Assembly: GCA_030407315.1 (NCBI GenBank)
Contig: JALQPE010001726.1
Location: 1 to 64,000 of the forward strand
Direction: 5' to 3'
DNA length: 64,000 nucleotides
DNA from: Asparagopsis taxiformis
Lineage: Eukaryota; Rhodophyta; Florideophyceae; Bonnemaisoniales; Bonnemaisoniaceae
Shown: positions 107 to 60,261 of the stretch, in pieces
Layout of the letters: each line of letters starts with the position of its first letter
Numbering within the stretch: the stretch's first letter is position 1
Position numbers and translations under genes: made by a program
Notes under the pieces: model-generated
What the model was told of the DNA's origin: nothing
What the model saw: the letters and a program-made list of their open reading frames with translations, nothing else
Database searches by the model: none

Positions 107-1050
107 AGAATGGACGTCTGGTGGTGTCCGGCTCAATTGCATTGCTGGCGAGCCCAGAAATTCTAAAATTTCGGCAGAAAAAAATTGTGAAATCATCGAT
201 TTGGGCGGGTCGATTGTGCCGTACGGCAGACCCCCATCTCAAAAACATGTTCACATGTGCATGTTTTTGAGATAGCCCAAATTTCAATTCAAATCAAGGT
301 GTCTAATTTGGCCACAACGGCCCCAGGAACCGGCTGCTGCCCGGCCGGGGCGTCAGGGCTTCGGTAAGCACTAACTGTAAGCCAAAATCGCGTCGTACGA
401 AGGGTCGATTCCAGGCTTCAAGCCAAGTTATGCTAGGGAGACATCTTTTTCCCTGTTTCATCATGGTCCCACCTTACATCCTCACGACAAACAACACTCA
501 CACATCACGTTACTCATATTCCGTGCACTTTGTATGAGTAGTGAGCCCGCCTGCTTAGTTGCTGCAATGCATGGATGTGGGCAGCACACGACCAACCTGA
601 AATGGACGTCCGGTGGATGTCCCAGCTCGATTGCATTGCTGGCCAGCCCAGAAATTCTAAAATTTCGGGCAGAAAAAAATTGTGAAAATCATCGATTTGG
701 GCGGGTCGATTGTGCCGTACGGCAGACCCCCATCTCAAAAACATGTTCACATGTGCATGTTTTGAGAATAGCCCAAATTTCAATTCAAATCAAGGTGTCT
801 AATTGGCCACACGGCCCCAGGAACCGGCTGCCGCCCCGACCGGGGTCATCACTGGCTTCTGTAAGCACCAACTGTAAGCCAAAATCGCGTCTTACGAAGG
901 GTCGATTTCAGGCTCAACAAGTCAGGGACATGTCTTGGTCCTTGTTTCATCATGGTCCCGCCCTACTCTCTCACGATCAACCTGAATGGACGTCCGGTGG
1001 ATGTCCAGCTCGATTGCATTGCTGACCAGCCCAGAAATTCTAAAATTTCC
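107..1050 (+). repeat. Three structured repeat modules with hairpin and GGACGTCC motifs (copy A)
   Basis: Modules begin near 107, 602 and 985. Each starts with a GGACGTCC-like palindrome followed by GGTGGATGTCC, then ATTGCATTGCTGG, then AGAAATTCTAAAATTTC. The first two continue with the palindrome GTGCCGTACGGCA and a hairpin, CTCAAAAACATG / CATGTTTTTGAG with a 10-nt loop (238-271 in the first; one T shorter in the second). The same modules recur in copies B, C and D with different copy number. Short ORFs here are repeat shadows. Confidence 0.85.
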
Positions 1051-1779
1051 GAGAAATCAATTTGGTGGCTCAGCATCTCCTGTGCAGAAAACTCTCGCAC
1101 TCATTTCTGATATACGTTTTTGACGTGTTTTTTTTTACTTTTAAGCATCAGGAAAGGCGTTACGGAAATTGGGACTACGCCACTTGTGAGCCGCGTCGTC
1201 TGAGATAGCAAGTAGAGTTTGTTGTATAGTATTTATATTGTATTCCAATGTGCGTTCGAGACCTCGTTGTAATGTTCTCGTGGTTTTGTGGGTATCAGTT
1301 TTGTGCTCACACTTCAGTGCCAGAAGTTCTGGCAGCCCAATGGTGGAATGTGCCTGAGCGATCAGTCATCACCGCTAGGTCACACATTTTGCTGGCAACG
1401 TGCGCTTGGAAGGACGAATGACCGCCGTGGGAGATGGATTTTTCAATTAATTCATTTGAATATAAAATTATTTAATTGCGAACTTTTGGAATAAGTTTGT
1501 GCTTTACAGTGGATATTACGGGATCATTTAAGGGAGCAAATGGATTGTGATATATATGATTATACCATTCCGATGTTCTCGATCCGGATCTCCTCATTCG
1601 GGAGTTCAGAGACCATGGCTTGGGCCATTATTAATCTCAATACCGGCGATGATATGGAGTATGCACAGCAGGACTTAAGCTGACGTTGAAAGCTGTCCAG
1701 TCGACGCCGCAGGTTAACCTGTGGAATTCCACTTCTCCGCCGTCACTGGCTGAGGTTCTTTGGTCGTGTTTCCTTTGTT

Positions 1780-3359
1780 TGGTGTAGAGGATAGAACGAC
1801 GGTGAGTATGCCAGTTTGGAGAGTATGCAGCGAGGGAAGCGTGTGTTTTGAGTCGTACTGTTGTCGTTGGATGCGATATTGATTCATTAGAAGCTTCGTG
1901 AGTCCATGGTTTGCATGTTGTGAACCATGGGAGGCAGGTAAGTAAGTGAGTCTCGCGGGTGTGCAATAAGGGATGCATGGGTTTTTAGTCTGACTGTTCT
2001 GGTTCATTTTGATGTTGTATAGGTGGTGCAGGAATAGTGATGAAGTAAGGTAAGTTTCATTGAGCTGAAAGACGGGTTTCGCGATGAAATGGAATGCTGA
2101 CTACATTTTTTCGTTGCACGATTTGTGAATTATTGGTTGTATTGTTTGTATGATGCAACGAGATGAAGAGGTTAAGTGCGTCCTGAGGGTATGAAGCGAG
2201 GGAAGTGTTTGTTTTAAATTTCTGTCGTCTTTTATGCAATTTTATTTATTGGGAGCTTAGTGAGTCATGGTGCATATTTGCTGAAGGGTGGAAGGGAGGT
2301 AGGCGAGCATTTGAGGGGTGCAGTGAGTGGAATGTGGTTTTTGAGTCTGACTGCTGTGGTTGATGTTGATTTTGTGTAGGTGATTCTGGAATGGTGATGA
2401 CGGAAGGTAAGTTACATTGAGCGCCTAGTTAAGTTGCGCGAAGATATGGAATGCTGACTACATTTTTTTGTACAATTTTTGACTATGGGTTTCTATTGTG
2501 TGCAGGATACAACGAGGGTAAGTGAGTTTCTGAGGGTATGCAGCGAGGGAAGCATGGGTTTTCAGTCCGACTTTTGTTGTTGATTTCGATTTTTTGTAGG
2601 TGATGCAGGAATGGTGATGACGGAAGGTAAGTTGCTTTAGCGCGCAGTCCGGTGGTGCGAAGATGCGGAATGTTGACTTCATTTGTTGGTTGTGAGATTT
2701 TCGACTTTTGGTCTGTATTGTGTGTAGAATGAAACGAGAGTAAGTGAGTTCTGAGGGTATGCATCGAGAGGAAGTGTTTGGTTTCGAATCTGACTATTGC
2801 AGTTAATGCGATATTTATTCATGGAAGCTTATCCAGTCATGGTGCGTATTGTGTCGAGCGAAGGAAAGTGCGGAAGTTTAGAGTATGCTGAGAGGGACAT
2901 GTGGGTTTTGAGTCCGACTGTTGTTGTTGATTTCGATTTTTTATGCAGGTGATGCTGGAATGGTGATGACAGAAGGTAAGTTTCATTGAGCGCCAAGACT
3001 TGTTTTGCGAAGATATGGACTGCTGACTTTGATTATTCATTGCAAGGTTTTTGCATCATGGTTTGTATTGTGTGTAGGAGGGATGAGAGGTAAGTAAGGG
3101 ATTTTCTAAGATATCTGGCGTGGTAAGCGTTGCTTTTCAATCTAACTGTTGGGGTTGATGTTGTGTATGTGATGCAGGAGTGGTGAAGCAGAACGGCAGG
3201 ACTCAGGGGGTGAAGAAGGGATCTAGGAAGATGGGGAATGAAGCTGTGAGGTGTTTCTGGTATGTGTATATTTTCGGGCATACGATAGAAGTAAGAGTGG
3301 GTTTCAAGCCGTGTAAGATTTTGCTGACCATGTTCGTGTTTCATGTCTTGATGATTTAA
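1780..3359 (+). other. Microexon-like cassette array, copy A
   Basis: 27-nt cassettes lie at 2,023-2,049, 2,380-2,406, 2,600-2,626 and 2,949-2,975. 12-nt cassettes lie at 2,506-2,517, 2,728-2,739 and 3,078-3,089. Each is preceded by an acceptor-like TATAG/TGTAG/GCAG and followed by GTAAGT or GTAAG. Gaps of about 80-100 nt contain CTGAC-type branch-like motifs. The last acceptor (3,176-3,177) opens a 182-nt stretch, 3,178-3,359, with 60 codons and a TAA, read in phase 1. Compared with copy C this terminal stretch has three single-base deletions that together keep the frame. Splicing is inferred from the sequence only. In phase 1, the first 27-nt cassette has a TAA and the 12-nt cassette at 2,728 has a TGA, so a full-length product is doubtful. 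Confidence 0.55.
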
Positions 3360-3739
3360 TGGGCTGGGGTGGTGTCGAGGAAAGCGGGATGGTATTGGGA
3401 AGGAGCAGATTTTTTGTAATCTAGGTCGTGAGGGTTCTTGAAGTATGTGCGGATGGTGGTGCATGGCGTTCGGATGGTAGGGAGAACGCGATAGTGGGGA
3501 GATGGTGATCGACGGTATGCTGACAGGTATTTTGTATTCTGGCTGGATACGTATTCCTATTCTAACCGGGTATTTATTTCCTATTCTGACCAGATATGTA
3601 TTTCCTATTCTAGAGAGACGTATTGTATACCAGCAGTTTCGTAAATGAGAGAATAAAATACGGTCCGATATGGGCCCTTAATTTACCATCCGCTGTAATT
3701 TCTTCCCTCCCGGTTTTTTGCTGATATATTGTATACTGA

Positions 3740-3824
3740 ATGTCGGGTCCTAGGATCCCGCCAAACGTACTAGAGAACTGGATGTCGGGTCCTAGTATTC
3801 CGCCGAACGTACTAGAGAAAGTGG
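3740..3824 (+). repeat. Subterminal 43-bp tandem repeat, 2 units (copy A)
   Basis: Two units, starting at 3,740 and 3,782, of a 43-bp sequence that begins ATGTCGGGTCCTAG and ends CTAGAGAAACTGG; the first has lost one base. The homologous sites in copies B and C hold six units each, so this minisatellite varies in copy number near the element end. Confidence 0.9.
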
Positions 3825-3954
3825 ACGTCCGCATCCAAAAAATTTTATTTTTTTTTCGGACGCGGACGTTCATTTGTTCTAGTAAATCTCGGGGCCGACT
3901 AGGACCCGTACTAGAGAGACTGGACGTCCGCGTCCACTTCCGAAAACACAGACG

Positions 3955-12282: not shown

Positions 12283-15024
12283 TTATCCCAGAGGCTTATA
12301 CTGAGAACTTGAGGCTTCTAGTTCGGGAAATCCAAATGGAAGCTTTCCAGAGTAAAGTAATAGTTGCAAAGCTTGAGTGAGCGGACTATCGGGTTTGGTG
12401 CCCGGATCAGCTAAGTTGAGACGTCCAGGAACCCAACAAATTCGGTTAGCATTGCCCACCTCAAATTGGTAACGAATGTAATTAACATCAGCACGAACAG
12501 ATCGATCAATAGATTGCCGCTGAGTGGAGAGAGAGGTATATAAGTCCTTAGAGTCGAGGATAACAATGAGCTCAACGGATAGATCCAGTAATAACGAAAA
12601 CGTGCGCTTCAGCATGATACCTTCATCAATAGCCTCACCCGCAGCTAATATCTCACCTGCTGCAATAGAGCAAACTGGTCGTTTAGATTTTTGCGAGGAC
12701 CATGAGACCGTGTGGTAGAATGAACCTTCTTGAACAGAACCAATAAGCACTCCCCACAATGTCGAAAGCTGCACGCTTTCTGAGGGTTTACCTGCATCTG
12801 CAAAGACAAGAACCGAGATCGAATATTCTTTTCCATCGCTTGGCCTTCCAAATGTGATAGTTGAACCGAGTCGCTGCAGTTCCTTCAGATTTGACCTTTG
12901 CTTAATCAGATCAGAAACAAGCAAATCGGGTAGACGTTGCTGGAGCCGACTGGAAACGGACGAACAAAAAGGCGATACAGTGGTGCCGAGCCAAACAAGA
13001 GAGCTGTTGATTGAGCAAAAAGTGTGTCGTTCGATTTGATTCATAGAGTCCGTGACTGCTTTGCGGCGGATGCGCGCTAGTGGCGCAGGTTCAATGTTGT
13101 GGAGCTTATCATCCGCATTAATAGCACACGTGAAATCATCGTTCTGAAAAATGTTAAAACCAAAGAATCTCAATATACCGGGACCATGAATCACAGTACC
13201 AAACTTGAAACGATCATTAAAATCGCTAAGAACCCTTTCAACTGCATCTTTCTCGCCAGTGGCTAGAATGTCATCAACAATCTTAGCCACAAGAACGCTT
13301 ATCTTGCCGTCAACTTTGCGATAGAACAGCTGAGGAACGTCTATAAGACGTTCTAAACCTAAATTGAGGAGCAAATTGTCCGACTGAACTTGGTACTTTG
13401 AGTTAGCATTCACTAACCCGTAGGATGCAGCTAGTAAAAGCCATAAAAACCGAAAACGATCATCCGACTCTCTAGGCGGGATAACATAGACCTCGCTCTC
13501 AGCAGAACCTGTCTGCAAAAATGCTGACTTCACACCAGCACGCGAAATGCACCACCGTCGAATAGAAGCGACAGATATCAGTATGCGGACACCAACAGGG
13601 GCACACATCGAACAATCAGAGCGTAGCTCGTGTCGAAGACTGTCTTCATTACCGTGCGGGGCTATGCGCGCTTTGAGCTTGAGGGCTTTGTCCTCATCAA
13701 TTTTGATCTTGTAAATCACATGAGATGAAATTATATTCGCATCACTTGGAACGGAAGAGCGCGGAACCACACGGACGGTACGCTTGAAGCTTTCCTCTTC
13801 CTTAGAATAAGACTGCCGTAGAACATGCGAAGGAAAGCCTTGCGCTTGATGAGCTAGAAATACCTTATTGCCAAAGTGTTCAAGCATCGATTGCAAATCT
13901 TCCTGTACGGAGCTCTTGAGCTCAAAAGCTGCCGAGGCACTGATTGTGCCTGAAGCCTGAGGGTTTCCAGAGAAGCGCCACATTTCCTTATTGATATCTA
14001 AAGTTTCCTTGTCACCGTCGTCGTAGGTAATATGGTGGTTTGTACCATCAACATGAGTAATATGACCAGCGTAGTACTGGTTATCCAGTGGCCAGAAAAC
14101 TTCAATCTGATCACCCACGGCCGGTATGACAGGCGCTAAATCTTCGTCAGTATCACCTTCAGCTGGAGCTGTTTGCTTTTCTGAATCCACAGGATGAACA
14201 TCCTGTGTGCTAGAATAGTCTTCAAGAGCGTTGGCAATTGCATCATCTAGAGTATCGATGCTTTGCTGAACCATTGATGCAAAAGAATCTCCATCTAAGG
14301 CCTTTCTTACATCTTCAAACGCAGCTCTGATGATACGTCCAGCAGATCCAGGGACAGTCACCGTACCTGTAGTGCGATCAATGGTCAGAACGGACCGAGG
14401 AGTCAGCCATTTGCCCCTCTTCTCCTTGTCACGCTTGATAAAGACTTCAACCAAATCGCCGACGGATACTTGAGTCTCAGAAGCAGCTTTAGACCGTAAA
14501 ATTCGGGTAAGCTTGCGTTTGGCTTCAAGCTGAAGCTGGGCTTCAATTAGATCAGGATCAATTTCAACAACTTGAGATGAGATTGTAACAGGACGAGTAA
14601 AGCCTTTGGCCATTTCAAAGGCAGAAAGAATGTCAGAGCCATAAAGATCGTTAGAGATACGTACCGCTTGCATGGCAGCCATCTCGGGAGCTGTGGCTTT
14701 GTCTCCTGTCAATCGCAGAAATATACTGCGGATCACACCATGCTTCGACTCGAGAACATTCTTATTATGTCGTCGCGGTGGAATGGGCTTGAACTCAATA
14801 TCCAGAGATGAGAAGTACTGCTTGCACTCGTCATGATTGAACGCAGCGTCACCAAGCACAGCAGTAGGTGGCCAGAACTGGTTAAGCCAACCAGATTCGA
14901 AAGCAAGAATAGCATCGCTCAATGAGGTACTAGGAACCAGAGAGCATGACGAGTAGCGGGAAACAGTATCCATAATATGAAACAGACATAAGTTTGCAAG
15001 ATAGAAGTGGTCAATGCAGACCAG
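12283..15024 (-). pseudogene. pol: copia pol 3' part: integrase core, reverse transcriptase, RNase H
   Basis: The minus-strand frame ends with TAA at 12,283. In order it shows the integrase DDE core (Asp in CIDHFYL, Asp in VLGDAAF, Glu in VLESKHG about 35 residues later), a linker, then RT with SAFLQTG, AASYGLVNANSKYQ and the KIVDDILATG box (Y of YVDD replaced), and RNase H with FADAGK, AAGEILAAGEA and ILDSKDLYTSL. The first RT catalytic Asp, expected as ADVKSAFLQ, is Gly here (AGVKSAFLQ at about 13,525-13,555), which should abolish polymerisation. The frame runs upstream through X sequence to 15,282, but that part belongs to the inserted LTR, not to pol. The 5' half of the gene is at 27,143-28,860. 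Confidence 0.9.
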
Positions 15025-15771
15025 TGTAGTAGGTAGAAAATCCGCAAAGCGGCAAAACCACCCTACAGGTGTCCCGAGTTTCGGTAGCGTGGTAGAGCAA
15101 GCGAATCTTGCGTCAACCGCCAATGGCGAGTATACCACGAATGGTCTTCCGGTAATGCCGGGTGAAGGTTGGGGGTGCTCACGCACGGAGTGCGTATTGA
15201 TGGAGCAGAAAGACGTAACCCGTCGAGCTGTATAGCTAAAGCTAATTCGTCCTAGAAGGATAGAAAAGAGCGATGCAAACACTGTTCAGTGGAGTCGTAA
15301 ATTCCACGTGAGTTTACGTTACCTCTAAAGGTTAAGCACTCTGGCTAATCCAGAGGCATTTTATACTAAACTAAGTTACTGTAAACAGTTAGGGTAGGTA
15401 GACAGTTAGGAATAAATATCCTTATGTGCACCAATCAGATCCCTGATTATGGCGACTGCGGGAGCCCGCGAGATCACCAACTGTTAGTGTTACAGTGTAA
15501 AGTTAGCTGAGTCAGCTTAGTTAAAATTTGCCCCTTGGGGGGTCTTTAATTGTCCCAATGGTGTAGGACCTTAGCCCTTGTAGATGGATTATACCTCCGA
15601 GGAGGATTAGAGGATAGGGATAAGGCTTCGAACTCACGAGTGACGTCTGTGTTTTCGGAAGTGGACGCGGACGTCCAGTCTCTCTAGTACGGGTCCTAGT
15701 CGGCCCCGAGATTTACTAGAACAAATGAACGTCCGCGTCCGAAAAAAATAAAAATTTTTTGGATGCGGACG

Positions 15772-16030
15772 TCCACTTTCTCTAGTACGTTCGGCGGAAT
15801 ACTAGGACCCGACATCCACTTTCTCTAGTACGTTCGGCGGAATACTAGGACCCGACATCCAATTTCTCTAGTACATTCAGCGGGATCCTAGGACCCGACA
15901 TCCACTTTCTCTAGTACGTTCGGCGGAATACTAGGACCCGACATCCACTTTCTCTAGTACGTTCGGCGGAGTACTAGGACCCGACATCCAGTTTCTCTAG
16001 TACGTTTGGCGGGATCCTAGGACCCGACAT
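15772..16030 (-). repeat. Subterminal 43-bp tandem repeat, 6 units (copy B)
   Basis: CCGACATCC recurs with exact 43-bp spacing (GACATCC or GACATTC at 15,811, 15,854, 15,897, 15,940, 15,983 and 16,026). Units alternate between TTCGGCGGAATAC and TTTGGCGGGATCC variants in the mirror order of copy C. Confidence 0.93.
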
Positions 16031-16461
16031 TCAGTATACAATATATCAGCAAAAACCGGGAGGGAAGAAATTACAGCGGATGGTAAATTGAGGGACCATA
16101 TCGGACCGTATTTTATTCTCTCATTTACGAAACTGCTGGTATACAATACGTCTCTCTAGAATAGGAAATACATATCTGGTCAGAATAGGAAATAAATACC
16201 CGGTTAGAATAGGAAATACGTATCCAGCCAGGATACGGAATATGTATCCAGCTAGAATATGGAATACGTATCCAGCCAGAATACAAAATACCTGTCAGCA
16301 TACCGTCGATCACCCATCTCCCTCACTATCGCGTTCTCCCTACCATCCGAACGCCATGCACCACCATCCGCACATACTTCAAGAACCCTCACGACCTAGA
16401 TTACAAAAAATCTGCTCCTTCCCAATACCATCCCCGCTTTCCTCGACACCACCCCAGCCCA

Positions 16462-18050
16462 TTAAATCATCAAGACATGAAACACGAACATGGTCAGCAA
16501 AATCTTACACGACTTGAAACCCACTCTTACTTCTATCGTATGCCCGAAAATATACACATACCAGAAACACCTCACAGCTTCATTCCCCATCTTCCTAGAT
16601 CCCTTCTTCACTCTCCTTGAGTCCTGCCGTTCCTGCTTCACCACTCCTGCATCACATACACAACATCAACCCCAACAGTCAGATTCAAAAGCGACGCTTA
16701 CCACGCCAGATATCTTAGAAAATCCCTTACTTACCTCTCATCCATCCTACACACAATACAAACCATGATGCAAAAACCTTGCAATGAATAATCAAAGTCA
16801 GCAGTCCATATCTTCGCAAAACAAGTCTTGGCGCTCAATGAAACTTACCTTCTGTCATCACCATTCCAGCATCACCTGCATAAAATCGAAATCAACAACA
16901 ACAGTCGGACTCAAAACCCACATGTCCCTCTCAGCATACTCTCAAAACTTCCGCACTTTCCTTCGCTCGACACAATACGCACCATGACTGGATAAGCTTC
17001 CAATGAATAAATATCGCATTAACTGCAATAGTCAGATTCGAAACAAACACTTCTCTCGATGCATACCCTCAGAACTCACTTACCCTCGTTTCATTCTACA
17101 CACAATACAGACCAAAAGTCGAAAATCTCACAACCAACAAATGAAGTCAACATTCCGCATCTTCGCACCACCGGACTGCGCGCTAAATGCAACTTACCTT
17201 CCGTCATCACCATTCCTGCATCACCTACAAAAAATCGAAATCAACAACAACAGTCGGACTGAAAACCCATGCTTCCCTCGCTGCATACCCTCAGAACTCA
17301 CTTACCCTCGTTGTATCCTGCACACAATAGAAACCATAAGTCAAAAATTGTACAAAAAAATGTAGTCAGCATTCCATATCTTCGCGCAACTTAACTAGGC
17401 GCTCAATGTAACTTACCTTCCGTCATCACCATTCCAGAATCACCTACACAAAATCAACATCAACCACAGCAGTCAGACTCAAAACCCACATTCCACTCAC
17501 TGCACCCCTCAAATGCTCGCCTACCTCCCTTCCACCCTTCAGCAAATATGCACCATGACTCACTAAGCTCCCAATAAATAAATATTGCATAAAAGACGAC
17601 AGTCAAATTTAAAACAAACACTTCCCTCGCTTCATACCCTCAGGACGCACTTAACCTCTTCATCTCGTTGCATCATACAAACAATACAACCAATAATTCA
17701 CAAATCGTGCAACGAAAAAATGTAGTCAGCATTCCATTTCATCGCAAAACCCGTCTTTCAGCTCAATGAAACTTACCTTACTTCATCACTATTCCTGCAC
17801 CACCTATACAACATCAAAATGAACCAGAACAGTCAGACTAAAAACCCATGCATCCCTTATTGCACACCCGCGAGACTCACTTACTTACCTGCCTCCCATG
17901 GTTCACAACATGCAAATCATGACTCACGAAGCTTCTAATGAATCAATATCGCATCAACGACAACAGTACGACTCAAAACACACGCTTCCCTCGCTGCATA
18001 CTCTCCAGACTGGCATACTCACCGTCGTTCTATCCTCTACACCAAACAAA
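16462..18050 (-). other. Microexon-like cassette array, copy B (reverse)
   Basis: Mirror of the copy C array. 27-nt cassettes lie at 16,849-16,875, 17,198-17,224, 17,417-17,443 and 17,777-17,803. 12-nt cassettes lie at 16,735-16,746, 17,084-17,095 and 17,306-17,317. The terminal open stretch is 16,462-16,646 (185 nt, 61 codons with stop, phase 1). At 17,084 the cassette reads ...ACGAGG before GTAAG where A and C have ...ACGAGA. Repetitive plus-strand ORFs across this region are shadows. Confidence 0.55.
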
Positions 18051-18755
18051 GGGAACACGACCAAAGAACCTCAGCCAGTGACGGCGGAGAAGTGGAATTC
18101 CACAGGTTAACCTGCGGCGTCGACTGGACAGCTTTCAACGTCAGCTTAAGTCCTGCTGTGCATACTCCATATCATCGCCGGTATTGAGATTAATAATGGC
18201 CCAAGCCATGGTCTCTGAACTCCCGAATGATGAGATCCGGATCGAGAACATCGGAATGATATAATCATATATATCACAATCCATTTGCTTCCCTTAAATG
18301 ATCCCTGTTATATCCACTGTAAAGCACAAACTTATTCCATGAAGTTCGCAGTTAATATAATTTTATTATTTCAAATGAATTAATTGAAAATCCATCTCCC
18401 ACGGCGGTCATTCGTCCTTCCAAGCGCACGTTGCCAGCAAAATGTGTGACCTAGCGGTGATGATTGATCGCTCAGGCACATTCCACCATTGGGCTGCCAG
18501 AAGTGAGCACAAAACTGATACCCACAAAACCACGAGAACATTACAAACGAGGTCTCGAACGCACATTTGGAATACAATATAAATACTATACAACAAACTC
18601 TACTCGCTATCTCAGACGACGCGGCTCACAAGTGGCGTAGTCCCAATTTTCCGTAACGCCTTTCCTGATGCTTAAAAGTAAAAAACACGTCAAAACGTAT
18701 ATCAGAAATGAGTGCGAGAGTTTTCTGCACAGAAGATGCTGAGCCACCAAATTGA

Positions 18756-20416
18756 TTTTTTGGAAATTTTAGAATTTCTGGGCTGGCCAGCAATGCAATC
18801 GAGCTGGACATCCACCGGACGTCCATTTCAGGTTGATCGTGAGAGAGTAGGGCGGGACCATGATGAAACAAGGACCAAGACCTGTCCCTGACGTGTTGAG
18901 CCTGAAATCGACCCTTCGTAAGACGCGATTTTGGCTTACAGTTGGTGCTTACAGAAGCCAGCGATGGCCCCGCTCGGGGCGTCGGATGGCTTCTTCTGGG
19001 GCCGTTGTGGCCAGATTAGATACCTTGATTTGAATTGAATTTTGAGCCATTCTCAAAAACATGCACATGTGAACATGTTTTTGAGATGGGGGTGTGCCGT
19101 ACGGCACAATCGACCCGCCCAAATCGATGATTTTTCACAATTTTTTTCTGCCCGAAATTTTAGAATTTCTGGGCTCGCCAGCAATGCAATTGAGCTGGAC
19201 ATTCACCGGACGTCCATTTCAGGTTGGTCGAGTATTGCACATGGATACAGTTTTGCAGCTATTTCTCAGCCCAACATTCTAGAATTTCAGGGCTGACCAG
19301 CAATGTAACCGAGCCGGACTTCCACTGGACGTCCATTTCAAGTTAGGCTAGTGCTGCACATTTGCTCGCATCGCAGCAACTAAGCAAGTGTTGACAGCAC
19401 CGAGATGCCATGCAGACAAGGGGGAATCGGCTGCAAACGGCTTCCCTGGTCGGCGGCTGGATGTCTGGATGTGAATGGCTGCAAGCATGGAAATCTTGCT
19501 ACCGCACAGCGCATACACACTGCAGCAGCACATCACTGACGCATGCGAAAGTTGGGTGCTGCAGTGCGTGGTTGTTTGTGTGTTTGTGTGTTTGTGTGTT
19601 TGTGTGTTTGTGTGTTTGTGTGTTTGTGTGTTTGTGTGTTTGTGTGTTTGTGTGTTTGTGTGTTTGTGTGTTTGTGTGTTTGTGTGTTTGTGTGTTTGTG
19701 TGTTTGTGTCTTTGTGTCTTTGTGTCTTTGTGTCTTTGTGTCTTTGTGTCTTTGTGTGTGTATGACGAACCTTGTGGTATCCCTAGGCGTGCACTGGTAC
19801 AAAAAGTTTGGACTGCCCCATCGGTCGTACTTTGGCGCATTTACATGCATCGGAGAACGACCAAGGAGGTAGAGCAGCAATCGCTGTTGGCTGAGCGTCC
19901 AAACTGGAGGGCTTGGGGCAATGGTTCTATAGCAGTCATTTATAGGACGCCCACCGTTGATGACTGAGATCCACGGTGGGTTTAGTATTCATGGTGTTGT
20001 CCTGCATTGGCGGACGTCGAAGACGAGTACTTCCAGTGAGCGTCCAAGGTGAACAGCTCAACAGAGGATTATGATGTGGATGTGAAGGCATGGATGAGGC
20101 CAGCAGGAACGTTTCTGCAAGATGGGCGTGAGTGGGTAAGTGAGCGGGGAGGGGCCGCTCGGGGCGCTTGGTAGCTTCTGGGGCCGTTGTGGCCAAATTA
20201 GAATCAAGCCTATGTCCGGCGGACGTCCTGAATTGCTTTATTTTTTGGGCTATTCTCAAAAACATGCACATGTGAACATGTTTTTGAGATGGGGGTGTGC
20301 CGTACGGCACTTTCGACCGCCCAAATCGATGTATTTTTGCATTTTTTTTCTGACTGAAATTTTAGAATTTCTGGGCTCGCCAGCAATGCAATTGCGCTGG
20401 TCATTCACCGGACGTC
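18756..20416 (-). repeat. Structured hairpin modules, copy B
   Basis: Four modules with AAATTTTAGAATTTCTGGGCT and GGACGTCC cores lie near 18,756, 19,163, 19,285 and 20,360. The CTCAAAAACATG hairpin occurs near 19,052 and 20,256, each next to GTGCCGTACGGCAC or its variant and GCCCAAATCGAT. TTGTGGCCA/TGGCCACAA words sit between modules. Confidence 0.85.
19575..19758 (+). repeat. TTTGTGTG / TTTGTGTC microsatellite, 23 octamers
   Basis: Twenty-three 8-bp units, the last several as TTTGTGTC. The matching sites in copies C (about 21,972-21,990) and D (61,562-61,582) have only two or three units, so the array expanded in this arm alone. ORFs reading VCLCVCVF through it are simple-repeat artefacts. 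Confidence 0.95.
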
Positions 20417-21384
20417 CATTTCCATTTCAGATCTACTGGTTGCACTAGGCCTGAAAGTGTTTCTGGATAGGGCTGAATAACGACCTGGGCAGCACGCACT
20501 GCGTAAGATGATCTGTGTTATGCAGACTGCAAGGATTTCTATGGTGATTCTGGCTGGGGAATGTGGTAAGCTTGATTGTTGCGTGGCTTTGTATCTCCTT
20601 GCCTGCCATTTTGCTTGGATATTTACACGAGCGATCAAACCGAAGACGCCGACTCGGCACAACTACCAACTCTCCTAGCTTCGAGTCAGCGCCATCTAAT
20701 TGCAACTTGTGACACTCAAGACGAATACGTTGTGCTGATCTCTGCAATGAAAATTGAGTTAGTGCTGCAGTTCTTTTGGTCGATGCCAATATGCAGGGAT
20801 ACTGTTTACACCTTTTGGGAGTCAAGAAGTTCTCGGATTGCAAATCAAATCAGATCATGGTAGAATATCTGACTTTTCTCTCGTGTAGTTGCATCAAGGC
20901 TTTAGTGGCCATTGCTAGAGAACTTTCTCCAATGCCCTTATTGCAGGATGGGCAGAAAACCCGGCCGGCTTCGAGATTGAAGAATTCATTGCGCAGATTG
21001 AATGAATGCAATTGACGGAGAATGCAGAAGTATACAATGGTATCGTTTTGCAGGGTGACGTAGGGGAAACATGTTGGGCTTGTTGGAAATGCTGAGAGCG
21101 ATGATGAGATCCAGTCGTTTCCGTCGTAGATGGCAGTGCTTATTTTCTGCACGGCTAGCTTGTCTGCTGGGCGACTGGGCGGTATTGGCGTACGATGAAG
21201 CGGGACTGGTGGTGTTTAAATGACATTTTTTGTTTGAAGATGGATGTATGTGTGCGACTAGAATGTAGTAAGAGCATGAAAATGTTTATGTTTGATGGGC
21301 GTCGCATGTTGGGGGACTTTATGTCGTGTGGGGCAATAATGTCTCAGGTATTTGAAGCAGACAGCAATCGCTTGAGCGCATATA
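20417..21384. other. Loop of the foldback palindrome
   Basis: 968 bp between the inverted arms. The left half (20,417 to about 20,884) is also present in copy D at 62,237-62,702, so it is part of the ancestral element. The right half (20,885-21,384) has no second copy in the window. No credible gene is seen; a short frame near 20,640 is open but unrecognised. Confidence 0.7.
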
Positions 21385-22910
21385 GACGTCCGGTGAATGA
21401 CCAGCGCAATTGCATTGCTGGCGAGCCCAGAAATTCTAAAATTTCAGTCAGAAAAAAAATGCAAAAATACATCGATTTGGGCGGTCGAAAGTGCCGTACG
21501 GCACACCCCCATCTCAAAAACATGTTCACATGTGCATGTTTTTGAGAATAGCCCAAAAAATAAAGCAATTCAGGACGTCCGCCGGACATAGGCTTGATTC
21601 TAATTTGGCCACAACGGCCCCAGAAGCTACCAAGCGCCCCGAGCGGCCCCTCCCCGCTCACTTACCCACTCACGCTGTTCAGCTTGGACGCTCACTGGAA
21701 GTACTCGTCTTCGACATCTGCCAATGCAGGACAACACCATGAATACTAAACCCACCGTGGATCTCAGTCATCAACGGTGGGCGTCCTATAAATGACTGCT
21801 ATAGAACCATTGTCCCAAGCCCTCCAATTTGGACGCTCAGCCAACAGCGATTGCTGCTCTACCTCCTTGGTCGTTCTCCGATGCATGTAAATGCGTCAAA
21901 GTACGACCGATGGGGCAGTCCAAATGTTTTGCACCAGTGCACGCCTAGGGATACCACAAGGTTCGTCGTGCACACACAAACACACAAACAACCACGCACT
22001 GCAGCACCCAACTTTCGCATGCGTCAGTGATGTGCTGCTGCAGTGTGTATGCGCCGTGCGGTAGCAAGATTTCCATGCTTGCAGCCATTGACATCCAGAC
22101 ATCCAGCTGCCGACCAGGGAAGCCGTTTGCAGCCGATTCCCTCTTGTCTGCATGGCATCTCGGTGCTCTCAACACTTGCTTAGTTGCTGCGATGCGAGCA
22201 AATGTGCAGCACTAGCCTAACTTGAAATGGACGTCCAGTGGAAGTCCGCCTCGGTTACATTGCTGGTCAGCCCTGAAATTCTAAAATGTTGGGCTGAGAA
22301 ATAGCTGCAAAACTGTATCCATGTGCAATACTCGACCAACCTGAAACGGACGTCCGGTGAATGTCCATCTCAATTGCATTGCTGGCGAGCCCAGAAATTC
22401 TAAAATTTCAGTCAGAAAAAAAATTGCAAAATTATATCGATTTGGGAGGTCGAAAGTGCCGTACGGCACACCCCCATCTCAAAAACATGTTCACATGTGC
22501 ATGTTTTTGAGAATGGCTCAAAATTCAATTCAAATCAGGGTGTCTAATCTGGCCACAACGGCCCCAGAAGAAGCCATCCGATGCCCCGAGCGGGGCCATC
22601 GCTGGCTTCTGTAAGCACCAACTGTAAGCAAAGCCACATCTCACGAAGGATCGATTCCAGGCTCAGGCTCAATACGCCAGGGCGAAGTTTTGGTCCTTGT
22701 TTCGACATGCTCCCACCCCACTTTCTCACGACAAACACTGCTCATCCATCATGCTGCCCATGCTACGTGCACTTTGTATGAGTAGTGAGCCCGCCTGCTT
22801 AGTTGCTGCAATGCATGGATGTGGGCAGCACACGACCAACCTGAAATGGACGTCCGGTGGATGTCCAGCTCGATTGCATTGCTGGCCAGCCCAGAAATTC
22901 TAAAATTTCC
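21385..22910 (+). repeat. Structured hairpin modules, copy C
   Basis: Modules lie near 21,385, 22,226, 22,348 and 22,848, in the mirror order of copy B. The perfect 14-bp palindrome GTGCCGTACGGCAC is at 21,491-21,504, followed by the CTCAAAAACATG hairpin; the same pair recurs near 22,457-22,512. Confidence 0.85.
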
Positions 22911-23629
22911 AAAAAATCAATTTGGTGGCTCAGCATCTTCTGTGCAGAAAACTCTCGCACTCATTTCTGATATACGTTTTGACGTGTTTTTTACTTTTAA
23001 GCATCAGGAAAGGCGTTACGGAAAATTGGGACTACGCCACTTGTGAGCCGCGTCGTCTGAGATAGCGAGTAGAGTTTGTTGTATAGTATTTATATTGTAT
23101 TCCAAATGTGCGTTCGAGACCTCGTTTGTAATGTTCTCGTGGTTTTGTGGGTATCAGTTTTGTGCTCACTTCTGGCAGCCCAATGGTGGAATGTGCCTGA
23201 GCGATCAATCATCACCGCTAGGTCACACATTTTGCTGGCAACGTGCGCTTGGAAGGACGAATGACCGCCGTGGGAGATGGATTTTCAATTAATTCATTTG
23301 AAATAATAAAATTATATTAACTGCGAACTTCATGGAATAAGTTTGTGCTTTACAGTGGATATAACAGGGATCATTTAAGGGAAGCAAATGGATTGTGATA
23401 TATATGATTATATCATTCCGATGTTCTCGATCCGGATCTCATCATTCGGGAGTTCAGAGACCATGGCTTGGGCCATTATTAATCTCAATACCGGCGATGA
23501 TATGGAGTATGCACAGCAGGACTTAAGCTGACGTTGAAAGCTGTCCAGTCGACGCCGCAGGTTAACCTGTGGAATTCCACTTCTCCGCCGTCACTGGCTG
23601 AGGTTCTTTGGTCGTGTTCCCTTTGTTTG

Positions 23630-25208
23630 GTGTAGAGGATAGAACGACGGTGAGTATGCCAGTCTGGAGAGTATGCAGCGAGGGAAGCGTGTGTTTTGAG
23701 TCGTACTGTTGTCGTTGATGCGATATTGATTCATTAGAAGCTTCGTGAGTCATGATTTGCATGTTGTGAACCATGGGAGGCAGGTAAGTAAGTGAGTCTC
23801 GCGGGTGTGCAATAAGGGATGCATGGGTTTTTAGTCTGACTTTTCTGGTTCATTTTGATGTTGTATAGGTGGTGCAGGAATAGTGATGAAGTAAGGTAAG
23901 TTTCATTGAGCTGAAAGACGGGTTTCGCGATGAAATGGAATGCTGACTACATTTTTTCGTTGCACGATTTGTGATTTATTGGTTGTATTGTTTGTATGAT
24001 GCAACGAGATGAAGAGGTTAAGTGCGTCCTGAGGGTATGAAGCGAGGGAAGTGTTTGTTTTAAATTTGACTGTCGTCTTTTATGCAATATTTATTTATTG
24101 GGAGCTTAGTGAGTCATGGTGCATATTTGCTGAAGGGTGGAAGGGAGGTAGGCGAGCATTTGAGGGGTGCAGTGAGTGGAATGTGGGTTTTGAGTCTGAC
24201 TGCTGTGGTTGATGTTGATTTTGTGTAGGTGATTCTGGAATGGTGATGACGGAAGGTAAGTTACATTGAGCGCCTAGTTAAGTTGCGCGAAGATATGGAA
24301 TGCTGACTACATTTTTTTGTACAATTTTTGACTTATGGTTTCTATTGTGTGCAGGATACAACGAGGGTAAGTAAGTTCTGAGGGTATGCAGCGAGGGAAG
24401 CATGGGTTTTCAGTCCGACTGTTGTTGTTGATTTCGATTTTTTGTAGGTGATGCAGGAATGGTGATGACGGAAGGTAAGTTGCATTTAGCGCGCAGTCCG
24501 GTGGTGCGAAGATGCGGAATGTTGACTTCATTTGTTGGTTGTGAGATTTTCGACTTTTGGTCTGTATTGTGTGTAGAATGAAACGAGAGTAAGTGAGTTC
24601 TGAGGGTATGCATCGAGAGAAGTGTTTGTTTCGAATCTGACTATTGCAGTTAATGCGATATTTATTCATTGGAAGCTTATCCAGTCATGGTGCGTATTGT
24701 GTCGAGCGAAGGAAAGTGCGGAAGTTTTGAGAGTATGCTGAGAGGGACATGTGGGTTTTGAGTCCGACTGTTGTTGTTGATTTCGATTTTATGCAGGTGA
24801 TGCTGGAATGGTGATGACAGAAGGTAAGTTTCATTGAGCGCCAAGACTTGTTTTGCGAAGATATGGACTGCTGACTTTGATTATTCATTGCAAGGTTTTT
24901 GCATCATGGTTTGTATTGTGTGTAGGATGGATGAGAGGTAAGTAAGGGATTTTCTAAGATATCTGGCGTGGTAAGCGTTGCTTTTATCTGACTGTTGGGG
25001 TTGATGTTGTGTATGTGATGCAGGAGTGGTGAAGCAGGAACGGCAGGACTCAAGGAGAGTGAAGAAGGGATGTAGGAAGATGGGGAATGAAGCTGTGAGG
25101 TGTTTCTGGTATGTGTATATTTTCGGGCGTACGATAGAAGTGAGAGTGGGTTTCAAGTCGTGTAAGATTTTGCTGACCATATTCGTGTTTCATGTCTTGA
25201 TGATTTAA
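23630..25208 (+). other. Microexon-like cassette array, copy C (best preserved)
   Basis: 27-nt cassettes lie at 23,869-23,895, 24,229-24,255, 24,448-24,474 and 24,797-24,823. 12-nt cassettes lie at 24,355-24,366, 24,577-24,588 and 24,926-24,937. A possible first one is at 23,636-23,649. Every one has an upstream ...TGTAG/GCAG and a downstream GTAAGT, GTAAG or GTGAGT, with TGCTGAC or TCTGAC words within the gaps. Read in phase 1 the 27-mers give the family DAGMVMTE / DSGMVMTE and the 12-mers G-Y-N-E or G-W-M-R. The terminal stretch 25,024-25,208 continues in the same phase for 61 codons to TAA, ending in a hydrophobic tail. In phase 1 the first 27-mer has a TAA and the 12-mer at 24,577 a TGA. 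More diverged units containing GCGATATTTATTCATTGGAAG alternate with these. No homologue is recognised. Confidence 0.55.
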
Positions 25209-25639
25209 TGGGCTGGGGTGGTGTCGAGGAAAGCGGGGATGGAATTGGGAAGGAGCGGATTTTTTGTAATCTAGGTCGTGAGGGTTCTTGAAGTATGTGC
25301 GGATGGTGGTGCATGGCGTTCGGATGGTAGGGAGAACGCGATAGTGAGGGAGATGGGTGATCGACGATATGCTGACAGGTATTTTGTATTCTGGCTGGAT
25401 ACGTATTCCATATTCTAGCTGGATACATATTCCGTATCCTGGCTGGATACGTATTTCCTATTCTAACCGGGTATTTATTTCCTATTCTGACCAGATATGT
25501 ATATCCTATTCTAGAGAGACGTATTGTATACCAGCAGTTTCGTAAATGAGAGAATAAAATACGGTCCGATATGGGCCCTCAATTTACCATCCGCTGTAAT
25601 TTCTTCCCTCCCGGTTTTTGCTGATATATTGTATACTGA

Positions 25640-25897
25640 ATGTCGGGTCCTAGGATCCCGCCAAACGTACTAGAGAAACTGGATGTCGGGTCCTAGTACT
25701 CCGCCGAACGTACTAGAGAAACTGGATGTCGGGTCCTAGGATCCCGCTGAATGTACTAGAGAAACTGGATGTCGGGTCCTAGTACTCCGCCGAACGTACT
25801 AGAGAAAGTGGATGTCGGGTCCTAGTATTCCGCCGAACGTACTAGAGAAAGTGGATGTCGGGTCCTAGTATTCCGCCGAACGTACTAGAGAAAGTGG
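25640..25897 (+). repeat. Subterminal 43-bp tandem repeat, 6 units (copy C)
   Basis: Units start at 25,640, 25,683, 25,726, 25,769, 25,812 and 25,855, each ATGTCGGGTCCTAG...CTAGAGAAA. They end at the inverted GGACGTCCGCATCC motif that leads to the element terminus. Confidence 0.93.
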
Positions 25898-27142
25898 ACG
25901 TCCGCATCCAAAAATTTTTATTTTTTTTTGGACGCGGACGTTCATTTGTTCTAGTAAATCTCGGGGCCGACTAGGACCCGTACTAGAGAGACTGGACGTC
26001 CGCGTCCACTTCCGAAAACACAGACGCACTCAAGGGTTAACTAGGCACTGAGCGCGATGGATCCCCGCGGGGATTGTGGTCGCCTCCACGCGTGGTTTTC
26101 ACACGACGTATTCCGCAACTGTGATACCACTGACGGCAGCGGTCGGACCGTTTGAAAAGCCTGCGGGCGTTGGCTTCGGTTGACCGGCTGGGGGTGCCAA
26201 ACGATAGCCACTCCCAGTCGGCAGCCTTGTCCCGGTGGGCGGAAGGCCCCTCCCGGTCGCCTAGCGGCGTTTAAAAGAAGCGGGATGGTTCTCCACTACC
26301 GTGGAGACGAAATGCCCTAGGGCAATCCACGTGCACCCCGCCGGAGGAGGCTCGCGGCGGGCAATTGGGGAAATGTGCGAGCGATCCCCAATTGGAGATC
26401 GAAACGGAGCAGCGGGTATCCGGTAAGGGAACTGCCGCCGCCGTCTAGTTGTAAGTTAAACGACCACGGTCGAAAGATTTGGAACCGAGACGATCTGCCT
26501 TTATTGTAGCTTAGTAGTCAATCCGTTGACCTTAAATGGACCGGACCAGGACCAATGGTCCCGGTCTGGCGTCCAATGGACCTTGTGGGGTGTTTATGTG
26601 GCCCAGGGGCCTTACAGAATAAGCTGCTACGTTGCTACGTGTAAACTAATAGAAACGGCTAGCCGTAACGTACACGTGCACATCTGTAACGGGAGAATCC
26701 TCCCGCTCGCACACGTGTGTGACTAATCGCGCCTATATCGCTACACGTTGCACGCTCGCCGAAGGGTCCCGCGCAAGCAATGTGGCCCGGTGCCAGTGCA
26801 AGGCGGCACGCGCCATTCGCCCTTGGGCGACAATTGCCTTGCCACGTCACCGCGGCCATTGATTCCCAACGCGGCTCTTCGCGGCTGATTCCCTATCGAG
26901 CACCCACTCACGCTCTCGAGCGTACCGCTTAAGCGACCCTTCCTGGCGCCCATTCCAGACGCCTGGAATTGTCCCCCCGCGACCGCTCGCAGCGCAATAC
27001 GGGACGAGTCCCACAAATGGGTCCCTCTCCCTCACTGGTCTGAGGTACAGCGAGGCTGTTTCCATTGGTTATTCCCGAACCGGGGTCGTCCAATAGGATG
27101 TCGACACGACCCCACCAGGGCAGACCACTCCGTGGTATGACA

Positions 27143-36683: not shown

Positions 36684-39600
36684 CTACATCTCTTCGTTCA
36701 TATCAATCCTAGAAACCATTTCACTCACTCGATCAACTTCCGCCTCCCCGTCGATTTCCTCACATCGCCTATACAACTCCATTGCACACTTTGCATCCAC
36801 TTCAACTCCATCCTCTCCACTCTCCAATGCCCTCGCAAGCGTCTTCATAGCTTCGCAGTCTTCTCCTTCACGAATCATACGCTCATACAGTTCCTTCGCA
36901 CCCGCCTTGTCCACGTCGACACCTTCTCCACCCCTTCCAAGAAGCAGTGCCAATCTCACTGTGCACCAATCATCTCTATTTTCCTCTATTGCGTTTCTAT
37001 ACAATGCTGCAGCCCGTGATGCATCAACATCGACCCCTGGTGCACCTTTCTCCAATAACTTTGCCAGTGAGTACATGGCAGCGCAGTCATTACCTTCGGT
37101 TACCGCTCTCCCGTAGAGCTCTACAGCGCGAGGTACATCTACGTATATGCCTGGCGCACCTTTCTCCAGAACCCCAGCAAGGTAGAACATGGCATCACAG
37201 TGTCCACCTTCCTCTATACATCGCTCATATAACTCGACCGCACGACTTGCATTAGCTTCAACCCCTGGTGCCCCTTTCCGGAGTAATCGAGCAAGATTGA
37301 ACATGGCACCACAGTGTCCACCTTCCTCTATACATCGCTCATACAACTCGACCGCACGACTTGCATTAGCTTCAACCCCTGGTGCCCCTTTCCGGAGTAA
37401 TCGAGCAAGATTGAACATGGCATGACAGTCCCCGTCTTCCTCTATAGCTCGCTCATACAACTCGACCGCACGACTTGCATTAGCTTCAACCCCTGGTGCC
37501 CCTTTCCGGAGTAATCGAGCAAGATTGAACATGGCACCACAGTGTCCACCTTCCTCTATACATCGCTCATACAACTCGACTGCACGACTTGCATTAGCTT
37601 CAACCCCTGGTGCCCCTTTCCGGAGTAATCGAGCAAGATTGAACATGGCACCACAGTGTCCACCTTCCTCTATAGATCGCTCATATAACTCGACTGCACG
37701 ACTTGCATTAGCTTCAACTCCTGGTGCTCCAATTTCGAATAATAGGGCAAGATTGAACATGGCACCACAGTGCCCACCTTCTTGTATTGCTCGCTCATAT
37801 AACTCGACTGCACGGCTTGCATCAGCCTCGACTCCTGCTGCACTGTTTTGGAGTAATCGAGCGAGATTGAACATGGGAACACAGTTTCCACCTTCCTCTA
37901 TACATCGCTCATACAACTCGACTGCACGACTTGCATTAGCTTCAACTCCTGGTGCTCCAATTTCGAATAATAGGGCAAGACTGTTCATGGCATGACAGTC
38001 CCCACCTCCCTCTATAGATCGCTCATACAACTCGACTGCACGGCTTGCATCAGCCTCGACTCCTGCTGCACCATTTTGGAGTAATAGGGCAAGATGGAAC
38101 ATGGCATCACAGTTTCCACCTTCCTCTATAGATCGCTCATACAACTCGACCACACGACTTGCATTAGCTTCGACTCCTGCTGCACTGTTTTGGAGTAATA
38201 GGGCAAGATTGAACATGGCATCACAGTCCCCACCATCCTCTATACATCGCTCATATAACTCGACCGCACGACTTGCATTAGCTTCAACTCCTGGTGCCCC
38301 AATTTCGAATAATAGGGCAAGATTGTTCATGGCATGACAGTCCCCACCTTCCTCTATACCTCGCTCATACAACTCGACTGCACGACTTGCATTAGCTTCA
38401 ACTCCTGGTGCTCCAATTTCGAATAATAGGGCAAGATTGTTCATGGCATGACAGTCCCCACCTCCCTCTATAGATCGCTCATACAACTCGACTGCACGGC
38501 TTGCATCAGCCTCGACTCCTGCTGCACCATTTTGGAGTAATAGGGCAAGATGGAACATGGCATGACAGTCCCCACCTTCCTCTATAGCTCGCTCATACAA
38601 CTCGACTGCACGACTTGCATTAGCTTCAACTCCTGGTGCCCCAATTTCGAATAATAGGGCAAGATTGTTCATGGCATGACAGTCCCCACCTTCCTCTATA
38701 CCTCGCTCATACAACTCGACTGCACGACTTGCATTAGCTTCAACTCCTGGTGCTCCAATTTCGAATAATAGGGCAAGATTGAACATGGCACCACAGTTTC
38801 CACCTTCTTGTATTCTTCGCTCATACAACTCGACCGCACGACTTGCATTAGCTTCGACTCCTGTCGCACCGTTTTGGAGTAATACGGCAAGATTGAACAT
38901 GGCATGACAGTCCCCACCTTCCTCTATACCTCGCTCATACAACTCGACTGCACGACTTGCATTAGCTTCAACTCCTGGTGCTCCAATTTCGAATAATAGG
39001 GCAAGATTGTTCATGGCATGACAGTCCCCACCTCCCTCTATAGATCGCTCATACAACTCGACTGCACGGCTTGCATCAGCCTCGACTCCTGCTGCACCAT
39101 TTTGGAGTAATAGGGCAAGATGGAACATGGCATGACAGTCCCCACCTTCCTCTATAGCTCGCTCATACAACTCGACCGCACGACTTGCATTAGCTTCGAC
39201 TCCTGCTGCACCGTTTTGGAGTAATACGGCAAGATTGAACATGGCATCACAGTGTCCACCTTCCTCTATAGATCACTCATATAACTCGACCGCACGACTT
39301 GCATTAGCTTCGACTCCTGCTGCACCATTTTGGAGTAATAGGGCAAGATGGAACATGGCATGACAGTCCCCACCTTCCTCTATAGCTCGCTCATACAACT
39401 CGACTGCACGACTTGCATTAGCTTCGACTCCTGTTCCACCGTTTTGGAGTAATACGGCAAGATTGAACATGGCACCACAGTGTCCACCTTCCTCTATAGA
39501 TCGCTCATATAACTCGACTGCACGACTTGCATTAGCTTCAACTCCTGGTGCTCCAATTTCGAATAATAGGGCAAGATTGAACATGGCACCACAGTGCCCA

Positions 39601-40736: not shown

Positions 40737-40952
40737 TGATTACGCAAAGATGTCTGCAGGTGCTTCGTGTGCGCAGTTGACGATGAATGGCGTGGATGGG
40801 CGCGCGATTGACGGGCGGTCGGTAGTGGGCGAAGGGAGAATTCAAAACGGGGATACAGGGGAGAGAAGTATGGGATGCAAACAGGCGCTGTGTTGAGCGT
40901 ACTTGGAAGGTTAGCGTAGCGTTGTTGTGAGCAATGAGGTCATCCTCCGGTG

Positions 40953-43141: not shown

Positions 43142-43233
43142 CCCGCCAGTGATGATAAATCGCTACCAACATACGATATGAACCCGTTGAGGGGTAGTCG
43201 ATATAACGAGTTTGAAGGATCATGACGTTAGTG

Positions 43234-58640: not shown

Positions 58641-58979
58641 GGTAGCGTCTGTGTTCTCGGAAATGGACGCGGACGTCCACAACCTCTAGTACACCTAGTA
58701 TTACTAGGCGGACGTCCATGTTCTCCAGTATTTTTGGATGTCCGCCTAGAACCGGACGTCCATGCGGTCTAGTACGTCTAGTATTACTAGGACGACATTC
58801 ATTGTTTCTAGTACCACGGATGTCCCCCTCGGGATGGACTTCCGCCATGTCTATGTCAACCTAGGACGGGCGCCGGTTCAGAAATTCAAAAATTTCGACC
58901 CCAGAAATTTCTGCCGCCTTGCTCGACATGGATGTCCGCATCCATCACGGCGACCACTCTATTTTTCCTTGTCGGTCGA

Positions 58980-59900
58980 CTCCAATTTTGTCTTTAATTT
59001 TTTCATCCTCTCGCTCACACCCCCTTCCATTTGGTGCTCACCTCCCCCGTACTGTACCTCAAACACCCCCAATACCACTCTAGAACGCATTTTCAGCTAC
59101 CTATCCCCGCTTCCACGGTGCACACCTCCATTCCATACCTACTTTTCTGCTCTACCGTACAGATTTCTTATAACCAGTCCTCATACTACCTCAGAATAGG
59201 AAAAAACATCCCCTATCCCTTCGACCATGCTCTCCCCCATCACCTTTGCAACGTATTGTTCTTCAATACCCTCTCTCCTCTACCTTCAACCCCTCTCCTT
59301 CGCCCTCTCCACAAACTTCCCCTGCAGCTTACTCTTCGACCTGCTCCACCCCTCCCTCCCTCACCTGCTACATGCCCCCACGCCATCCACATCTTCGATA
59401 CCGTATACACCACCACCACCACCGGCCCACGCTCCCGCTCCCACGCCGTCTCCCCAGAAACCTCCCCGCTCTGAACCACATATCAACCCCCCACTTCGCA
59501 CCCATCCTCCCACTCCCCTCCCTCCCCAAATACAATAACCCTCTTCTTCTCCATCACATCCCCACTCACCACAGCCAGAACAGACGCCACCCCCTTCCCA
59601 CCTCTTTCTCCTCACTTTCCTAAAACCCCCTCCTCTCGGGGCCTTCAACCGCACCCTCCTACGGTCCCACCTAAACACCTCCTCCGCCCTCACTACCCCA
59701 ACACCCCGCAGCGTCTCCCCAATCCCCATAATATGCTTGTCGGCACTCCTCTCCGAATCACACTCCAATCTAAACCCGCACTCCGTACATTTCCACTTCC
59801 CCCTGTACCATCCCATCCCAAGATTCCATCCACCCCCCACAGAACACATCCTCATACCACAGAAGAATTTTCTTCCTCTCATACCTCATCCTTAAAACCT
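58980..59900. other. Pyrimidine-rich tract inside copy D
   Basis: About 900 bp with C and T dominating the plus strand. A 173-codon minus frame (59,361-59,882) is Gly/Arg-rich with a CTEC...C pattern and reads as a possible zinc-binding protein, but such frames are expected by chance in purine-rich strands. No gene is claimed. Confidence 0.5.
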
Positions 59901-60261
59901 CCATCTCTCCATGTAAATTTCGATGTAAATATTTTCTCCACTATGCAAACTCATACATGTATGAGCGTATGCCTTTCCGCTTCGTCAACCTGAATATTTG
60001 TATTCATGTATTCATAAAATGGAGCCACCCACATCCTATCCCGTTCTGCAAGCTTTACAAACCACCAGACGCATACTCCACAACTATACAACAACCACTA
60101 CTCGCTATTTCAGACGACGCGGCTCACAAGTGGCGTAGTCCAATTTTCCGTAACGCCTTTCCTGATGCTTAAAAGTAAAAAACACGTCAAAACGTATATC
60201 AGAAATGAGTGCGAGAGTTTTCTGCACAGGAGATGCTGAGCCACCAAATTGTTTTTTCGGA

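Follow-up and report, generated by a model that had tools for sequence, protein, structure and literature searches.

An array of exon- and intron-like units in one arm of a high-copy DNA transposon of Asparagopsis taxiformis

Introduction

CACTA/EnSpm transposons generate target duplications of 2–3 bp, carry subterminal repeats and end in a terminal CACTR motif. Tandem repeats inside transposon arms are known from Tetris, a foldback DNA transposon of Drosophila virilis with repeats of about 220 bp (PMC4079207). Introners derive from DNA transposons and can carry splice sites, terminal inverted repeats and target duplications, each copy forming a single intron within a gene (PMC9860276). Introns have also been attributed to tandem duplication of a segment bearing an AGGT site, one site having to supply both the GT and the AG (PMC4974935).

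The locus described here combines features of these systems in a layout that we found undescribed in the literature searched, which covered titles and the openings of abstracts with a limited set of wordings. It lies in a stretch of 64,000 nucleotides (the window), the first part of the 69,926 bases of contig C1605; the assembly comprises 141.5 Mb in 3,156 contigs. Small exon-like cassettes of 27 and 12 nt alternate there with intron-like gaps, and three such arrays are present in the window, each in one copy of the same transposon arm (Table 1).

The host transposon

The array is located in the right (R) arm of a DNA transposon of about 11 kb and very high copy number, so the initial annotation was right in calling it transposon-borne. 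The R arm ends in the 24-mer CGTCCACTTCCGAAAACACAGACG, which has 1,258 exact copies genome-wide (637 + 621). The related 24-mer at the end of the left (L) arm, CGTCCATTTCCGAGAACACAGACG (e.g., at 58646 of the window, minus strand), differs from it at two positions and has 1,215 exact copies (604 + 611). Inverted terminal repeats of the form CGTCTGTG...CACAGACG were found at both ends of all ten fetched elements, a result given by construction, since the elements had been picked by those ends. Independent support comes from 13 correctly oriented L–R pairs spaced 10.0–12.0 kb apart, the pairing having been made among the places listed, i.e., the first 100 or so per search. Among the same places, some L–R pairs of the same orientation are 14–21 kb apart (e.g., on C113, C12, C88 and C192), and many ends are without a partner there. 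Two elements fetched at full length, on C1904 and C2328, run from L end to R end over 11.3–11.4 kb.

Flanks of 40 bases on each side were fetched for ten of the 13 pairs. A 2-bp direct repeat was present in seven of these insertions (AA, TG, TT, TG, AG, TG and TA), TAA was repeated in one, and two had no direct repeat. Of four further elements, those on C2328 and C100 have a 2-bp repeat, and the one on C1904 and the one at 15644–26026 of the window have none, which brings the 2-bp target duplication to nine of the 14 insertions checked.

Both arms are long. The R arm contains internal tandem repeats, namely the array and the 24-bp and 43-bp repeats, and the L arm has no array; the inner parts are common to both arms in inverted orientation. 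The inner part of the element in the window also includes 23 copies of an 8-base unit, TGTTTGTG, at 19573–19759. The first genome search with the array DNA gave 1,685 candidates; 40 of them were scored, each proving 99–100% identical over 1,579 bases. Within the window, the inverted match to R arm copy A spans 15638–18841 and is 98.9% identical.

Nine open reading frames of the C1904 element were compared with Pfam, and none exceeded the curated cut-off (a weak match to DUF5736 has an E value of 0.044); the transposon therefore looks non-autonomous. The frame at 2570–2983 of locus L009 (minus strand) yielded neither a Pfam match nor a homologue at E 0.001. The genome contains 36 matches to Transposase_21; in the five matching contigs up to C218, no transposon end among those listed flanks them.

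Copies A and B form a symmetric element with two R arms (15644–26026), and a similar one occupies positions 220069–230492 of C100. R ends on both sides in place of an L and an R end suggest arm exchange between copies. At locus L025 (448–1764), R-end sequence directly adjoins an interior part of a different array, which looks like the insertion of one element into another; such a junction could be used to date insertions. The start of contig C1605 appears to lie inside the element carrying R arm copy C, and our uncounted impression is that contigs often start or end inside these elements. The assembly may break within them, and copy counts may be off.

Other mobile and repetitive sequences in the window include a DDE_Tnp_4 transposase frame at 53773–54522 (plus strand), which we take to be of Harbinger type, a Copia-type RVT_2 frame at 12286–15285 (minus strand), and a 114-base unit repeated about 26 times at 36687–40739 (minus strand), a region mostly covered by a reading frame matching Sel1 repeats.

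Table 1. Positions of the transposon arms and of the array components in the window
Feature	Position	Strand	Remarks
R arm copy A	22831..26026	+	ends in 24-mer ...CACAGACG at 26003-26026; holds the array described
R arm copy B	15644..18841	-	array at 16462-18042
R arm copy C	972..3954	+	array at about 1782 to 3360
L arm of a further element	58646..60083	-	G-rich; bears a related 24-mer at its end; lacks the array and, where tested, GTAAGT
12-nt cassette e0, GATAGAACGACG	23638..23649	+	preceded by AG and followed by GTGAGT; first cassette of the array; new here
27-nt cassette a	23869..23895	+	TAA stop in the proposed phase
Dead homologue of 12-nt cassette	23999..24016	+	from unit alignment; acceptor AG reads TG, donor degenerate
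27-nt cassette b	24229..24255	+	exact borders
Intron-like gap, 99 nt	24256..24354	+	GTAAGT...CTGAC...GCAG
12-nt cassette b	24355..24366	+	exact borders
Intron-like gap, 81 nt	24367..24447	+	
27-nt cassette c	24448..24474	+	exact borders
Intron-like gap, 102 nt	24475..24576	+	
12-nt cassette c	24577..24588	+	TGA stop in the proposed phase
27-nt cassette d	24797..24823	+	exact borders
Intron-like gap, 102 nt	24824..24925	+	
12-nt cassette d	24926..24937	+	exact borders
Intron-like gap, 86 nt	24938..25023	+	ends in the last acceptor (25022-25023)
Last exon-like stretch	25024..25208	+	frame in the proposed phase runs to the TAA ending at 25208
24-bp and 43-bp subterminal tandem repeats	25379..25902	+	AATAAA at 25553-25558 between them

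Anatomy of the array

The four 27-nt and three 12-nt cassettes reported initially are all in place, with TAG or CAG before and GTAAGT after them, and e0 adds a fourth 12-nt cassette that had been missed. The order is 12, 27, (dead 12), 27, 12, 27, 12, 27, 12 and the last exon-like stretch. The e0 borders are intact in all copies that cover them, the AG in 35 of 35 and the GT in 40 of 40. Both cassette lengths are multiples of three and any joining of cassettes keeps one phase, as had been pointed out; the last acceptor does open a frame in that phase. The gaps had been described as about 80–100 nt long, which fits five of them (81–102 nt), but the other three measure 208, 219 and 333 nt. The 333-nt gap contains a homologue of the 12-nt cassette that lacks an acceptor, and similar decayed pieces were recognised by eye in the 208- and 219-nt gaps. 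The branch-like words are present, not only as CTGAC but also as CCGAC or TTGAC.

The two borders of a cassette have different contexts, GGAAG|GTAAGT at the donor and TTGTAG|GTGAT at the acceptor, and both are found in intact units. The sequence has an AATAAA at 25553–25558, between the 24-bp and the 43-bp repeats, a position 3' of the last exon-like stretch that would suit an outward transcript. In one subfamily of the array, which includes L011 (8315–9901) and L052 (C1739 and C1593, respectively) and, by match, C1714 and C1715, the last exon-like stretch begins with a short duplication in inverted orientation, and the length exceeds that of the main form by about 30 bases.

The likeness to a genuine intron of the kelch gene, the one host intron compared (44194–44275, minus strand, GTAAGC...CACAG), holds as far as its length of 82 nt and its donor are concerned; in composition, however, that intron is rich in pyrimidines, and the gaps of the array are GT-rich. 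The kelch gene belongs to a small host gene cluster at 41813–48850 together with Dus, Alg14, DAD and a short-chain dehydrogenase.

Splice-like words and their conservation

The frequency expected by chance was estimated from 500 dinucleotide shuffles. The whole array contains eight GTAAGT words against 0.48 in the shuffles, and eight intron-like strings against 0.06. As the units are tandem duplicates, the fair figures are those for a single unit (24229–24474), which has two GTAAGT against 0.06 (P 0.002), one intron-like string against 0.01 (P 0.008) and one cassette-like string against 0.11 (P 0.07). No GTAAGT occurs on the antisense strand, in the left arm or in either of the flanks tested.

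Conservation was assessed in 43 aligned arrays, of which 41 were counted after L033 and L052 had been dropped; L001–L008 were omitted as repeats of other loci. As many copies are near-identical, independent mutations are scarce, with 159 changes counted at 795 sites. The tests reported below were exploratory, i.e., chosen after the data had been seen and with several masks tried, and their P values are uncorrected. The splice borders were compared with matched GT (137 sites) and AG (100 sites) elsewhere in the array, in 51 copies, ten of them covering only 24229–25023. Of ten additional copies, nine share 99.4–99.5% identity with the window copy and the tenth 97.7%. None of the 34 border nucleotides (eight GT and nine AG) is changed wherever covered, against 5.2 changes expected (P 0.015). 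The 40 copies scored in a later genome search were 98–100% identical to the query and so added no new divergent copies to this comparison.

Donors, acceptor AGs and branch words taken together have 0.091 changes per site between copies, against 0.200 overall (P 0.018 with shifted masks); singly they are not significant (P 0.23, 0.20 and 0.15, respectively). Between units a–d of one array the identity of the same words is 0.897 and that of the remaining sequence 0.719 (P 0.008); of the three classes taken singly, only the donors fall below 0.05 here (P 0.028; AG 0.295, branch words 0.108).

Taken as a set, the cassettes are about as variable as the sequence around them (P 0.41 with shifted masks, or 0.22 with the borders added). 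In the 41 copies, changes per site amount to 0.102 in the 27-nt cassettes, 0.278 in the 12-nt cassettes, 0.240 in the short gaps, 0.132 in the long gaps and 0.288 in the last exon. A later count gave 0.306 for the 12-nt cassettes, the most variable part, against 0.200 overall. The 27-nt cassettes on their own display a trend towards conservation (P 0.088 between units, P 0.187 between copies), and the 12-nt cassettes on their own display none. None of the 25 indels falls in a cassette; with homopolymers controlled for, this is not significant (P 0.108), and we dropped indel avoidance as a sign of constraint. The comparison of drift in borders and frame with drift in the gaps, as suggested in the initial annotation, gave a divided answer: a weak constraint on the borders is not contradicted, but the content of the cassettes as a class drifts like the gaps.

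The flanks were compared in 23 copies. Variation in the array is about as low as in the R-specific sequence immediately before it, and the sequence downstream is more variable (24 of 258 sites, and nine of 184 in the last exon). Special conservation of the array relative to both flanks was considered and then narrowed to the downstream side, the variable upstream part being 22831–23080 alone, which is common to both arms. A 47-codon reading frame upstream of the array (from 23388) has two variants in these copies, too few to be informative.

Coding capacity

Stops in the proposed phase interrupt three of the eight cassettes, e0 (with a TAG), 27a and 12c; two stop-bearing cassettes had been noted before. 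No open frame runs through the cassettes. Variants of the last exon, 61 codons long, are distributed over the three codon positions as 14, 11 and 14 in 41 copies, i.e., with no codon-position signal; its frame stops earlier in nine of the 41 copies and is open in 32. The exon–exon junctions 27b|12b, 27d|12d and 12d|last have no genomic match at up to three mismatches; such a lack of retrocopies counts weakly against splicing.

Two environmental proteins, P0121 and P0122, have lengths of 60 and 57 residues and match the last frame with 90% and 85% identity. Their source contigs are 563 and 511 bases long and carry no upstream exon, and the first residue of each is compatible with initiation at a GTG immediately inside the acceptor, so the two look as mechanical open reading frame calls on element DNA would. 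Judged by them, the array element or a near relative is present in an ENA data set. No relatives of P0121 were confirmed in prokaryote genomes or viral contigs.

Origin and possible function of the array

The reading we favour, at a probability of roughly 45%, is that of a tandemly amplified exon–intron module, probably spliced as non-coding RNA. The module would consist of a 27-nt exon-like part, an intron-like part of about 100 nt, a 12-nt exon-like part and an intron-like part of about 81 nt, amplified in tandem roughly fourfold together with decayed intermediates. A transcript reading outward through the R arm would be spliced across the array, now or until recently; splicing would have kept the donor, branch and AG words while the content of the 12-nt exons drifted. 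The array may have grown by duplication of whole exon–intron units through unequal exchange or slippage, with no new introns made from AGGT sites.

The initial annotation had offered two other readings, both of which fare badly. Symmetric protein-coding microexons, skipped or included to give combinatorial peptides, would agree with lengths of 27 and 12 nt that keep one phase on joining, with the last frame open in most copies and with the two environmental matches to it. However, the stops in the cassettes, the variability of the 12-nt cassettes and the codon-position counts in the last exon weigh so heavily against peptides that we discarded this reading as highly improbable, and the environmental frames, from short contigs with starts just inside the acceptor and no upstream exon, do little to restore it. 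Kept borders, free 12-nt content and the lack of a codon signal are together better accommodated by spliced non-coding RNA. Intron birth, in which tandem duplication of an AGGT-bearing unit would itself have created the introns, could draw on the AG|GT found at both borders of the 27-nt cassettes. Against it, the donor and acceptor contexts differ, whereas the AGGT model needs one site to provide both, and we rejected it on this ground, giving it very little credence. Since each intact unit holds both complete borders, duplication multiplied introns that already existed: what was duplicated is whole exon–intron units whose two borders differ in context. The two gap types have weak homology to each other; eight of nine pairs are not above shuffles at P 0.05 and one is clearly above, so that we regard such homology as unsupported in eight of the nine comparisons.

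A more serious competitor treats the array as a subterminal tandem repeat of ordinary kind in a foldback-like transposon, serving transposase binding or merely carried along, with splice-like words that are unused and represent a relic (e.g., of a captured gene piece) or chance. The other tandem repeats of the R arm, the repeats within the inverted repeats of Tetris (PMC4079207, as far as this account was available), the cassettes varying overall like the gaps, and an array about as invariant as the R-specific stretch upstream are all in keeping with such a repeat. It leaves unexplained that splice borders and signals are more conserved than matched sites, that GTAAGT is in excess within a single unit and that the downstream stretch is more variable than the array. 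On the sequence evidence, spliced non-coding RNA fits slightly better than a plain subterminal repeat, and the latter is nearly as likely.

A stronger version of the favoured reading is that the R arm carries working tandem spliceosomal introns on its outward strand as the non-coding functional part of the transposon; this we consider rather doubtful. The transposon would then benefit from the spliced RNA or from the repeated U1-binding donors as such, possibly because outward or read-through transcripts would be spliced or shielded from early 3' processing, and selection would bear on splice signals rather than on what the exons contain. If the array is spliced, a transposon arm present a thousand times or more is a vehicle for the tandem multiplication of introns, and it would offer a direct setting in which to study both the spread of introns and small exons and what the element gains from splicing. 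If it is not, intron-like signals have been copied about a thousand times within a subterminal repeat and constitute a trap for gene prediction.

Comparison with known systems

CACTA/EnSpm elements resemble the present transposon in their 2-bp target duplications and subterminal repeats. The ends differ: here they are CGTCTGTG and not CACTA, the ten fetched elements reading CGTCTGTGTT where CACTR would be expected, and no transposase was found among the nine frames of the one element compared with Pfam.

With introners the transposon shares derivation of intron-like sequence from a DNA transposon together with splice-site-like borders, terminal inverted repeats and target duplications; but an introner copy is one intron within a gene, whereas several intron-like units lie here inside one 11-kb element, and the word "tandem" is absent from the main text of the introner paper, as far as that text was available (PMC9860276). 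The introns attributed to AGGT duplication are similar in that tandem duplication leads to repeated splice signals, and they differ in that whole exon–intron units are duplicated here and no AGGT site is shared by the two borders (PMC4974935, in the part available).

Tetris comes closer. In the available part of its description it has no apparent coding capacity, long modular arms and rearranged forms, as the present transposon does, and its arms likewise contain internal tandem repeats, in that case of about 220 bp and varying in copy number (PMC4079207). Its target duplications are 8–9 bp long, against mostly 2 bp here, and that part of the description mentions no intron-like content; we liken the two by anatomy and not by end sequence (PMC4079207). 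The L arm of the present transposon, unlike the arms of Tetris in the same account, has no array. As far as the literature searched and the available part of that account go, Tetris is the nearest system in anatomy, and what the present case adds is repeats with intron-like content.
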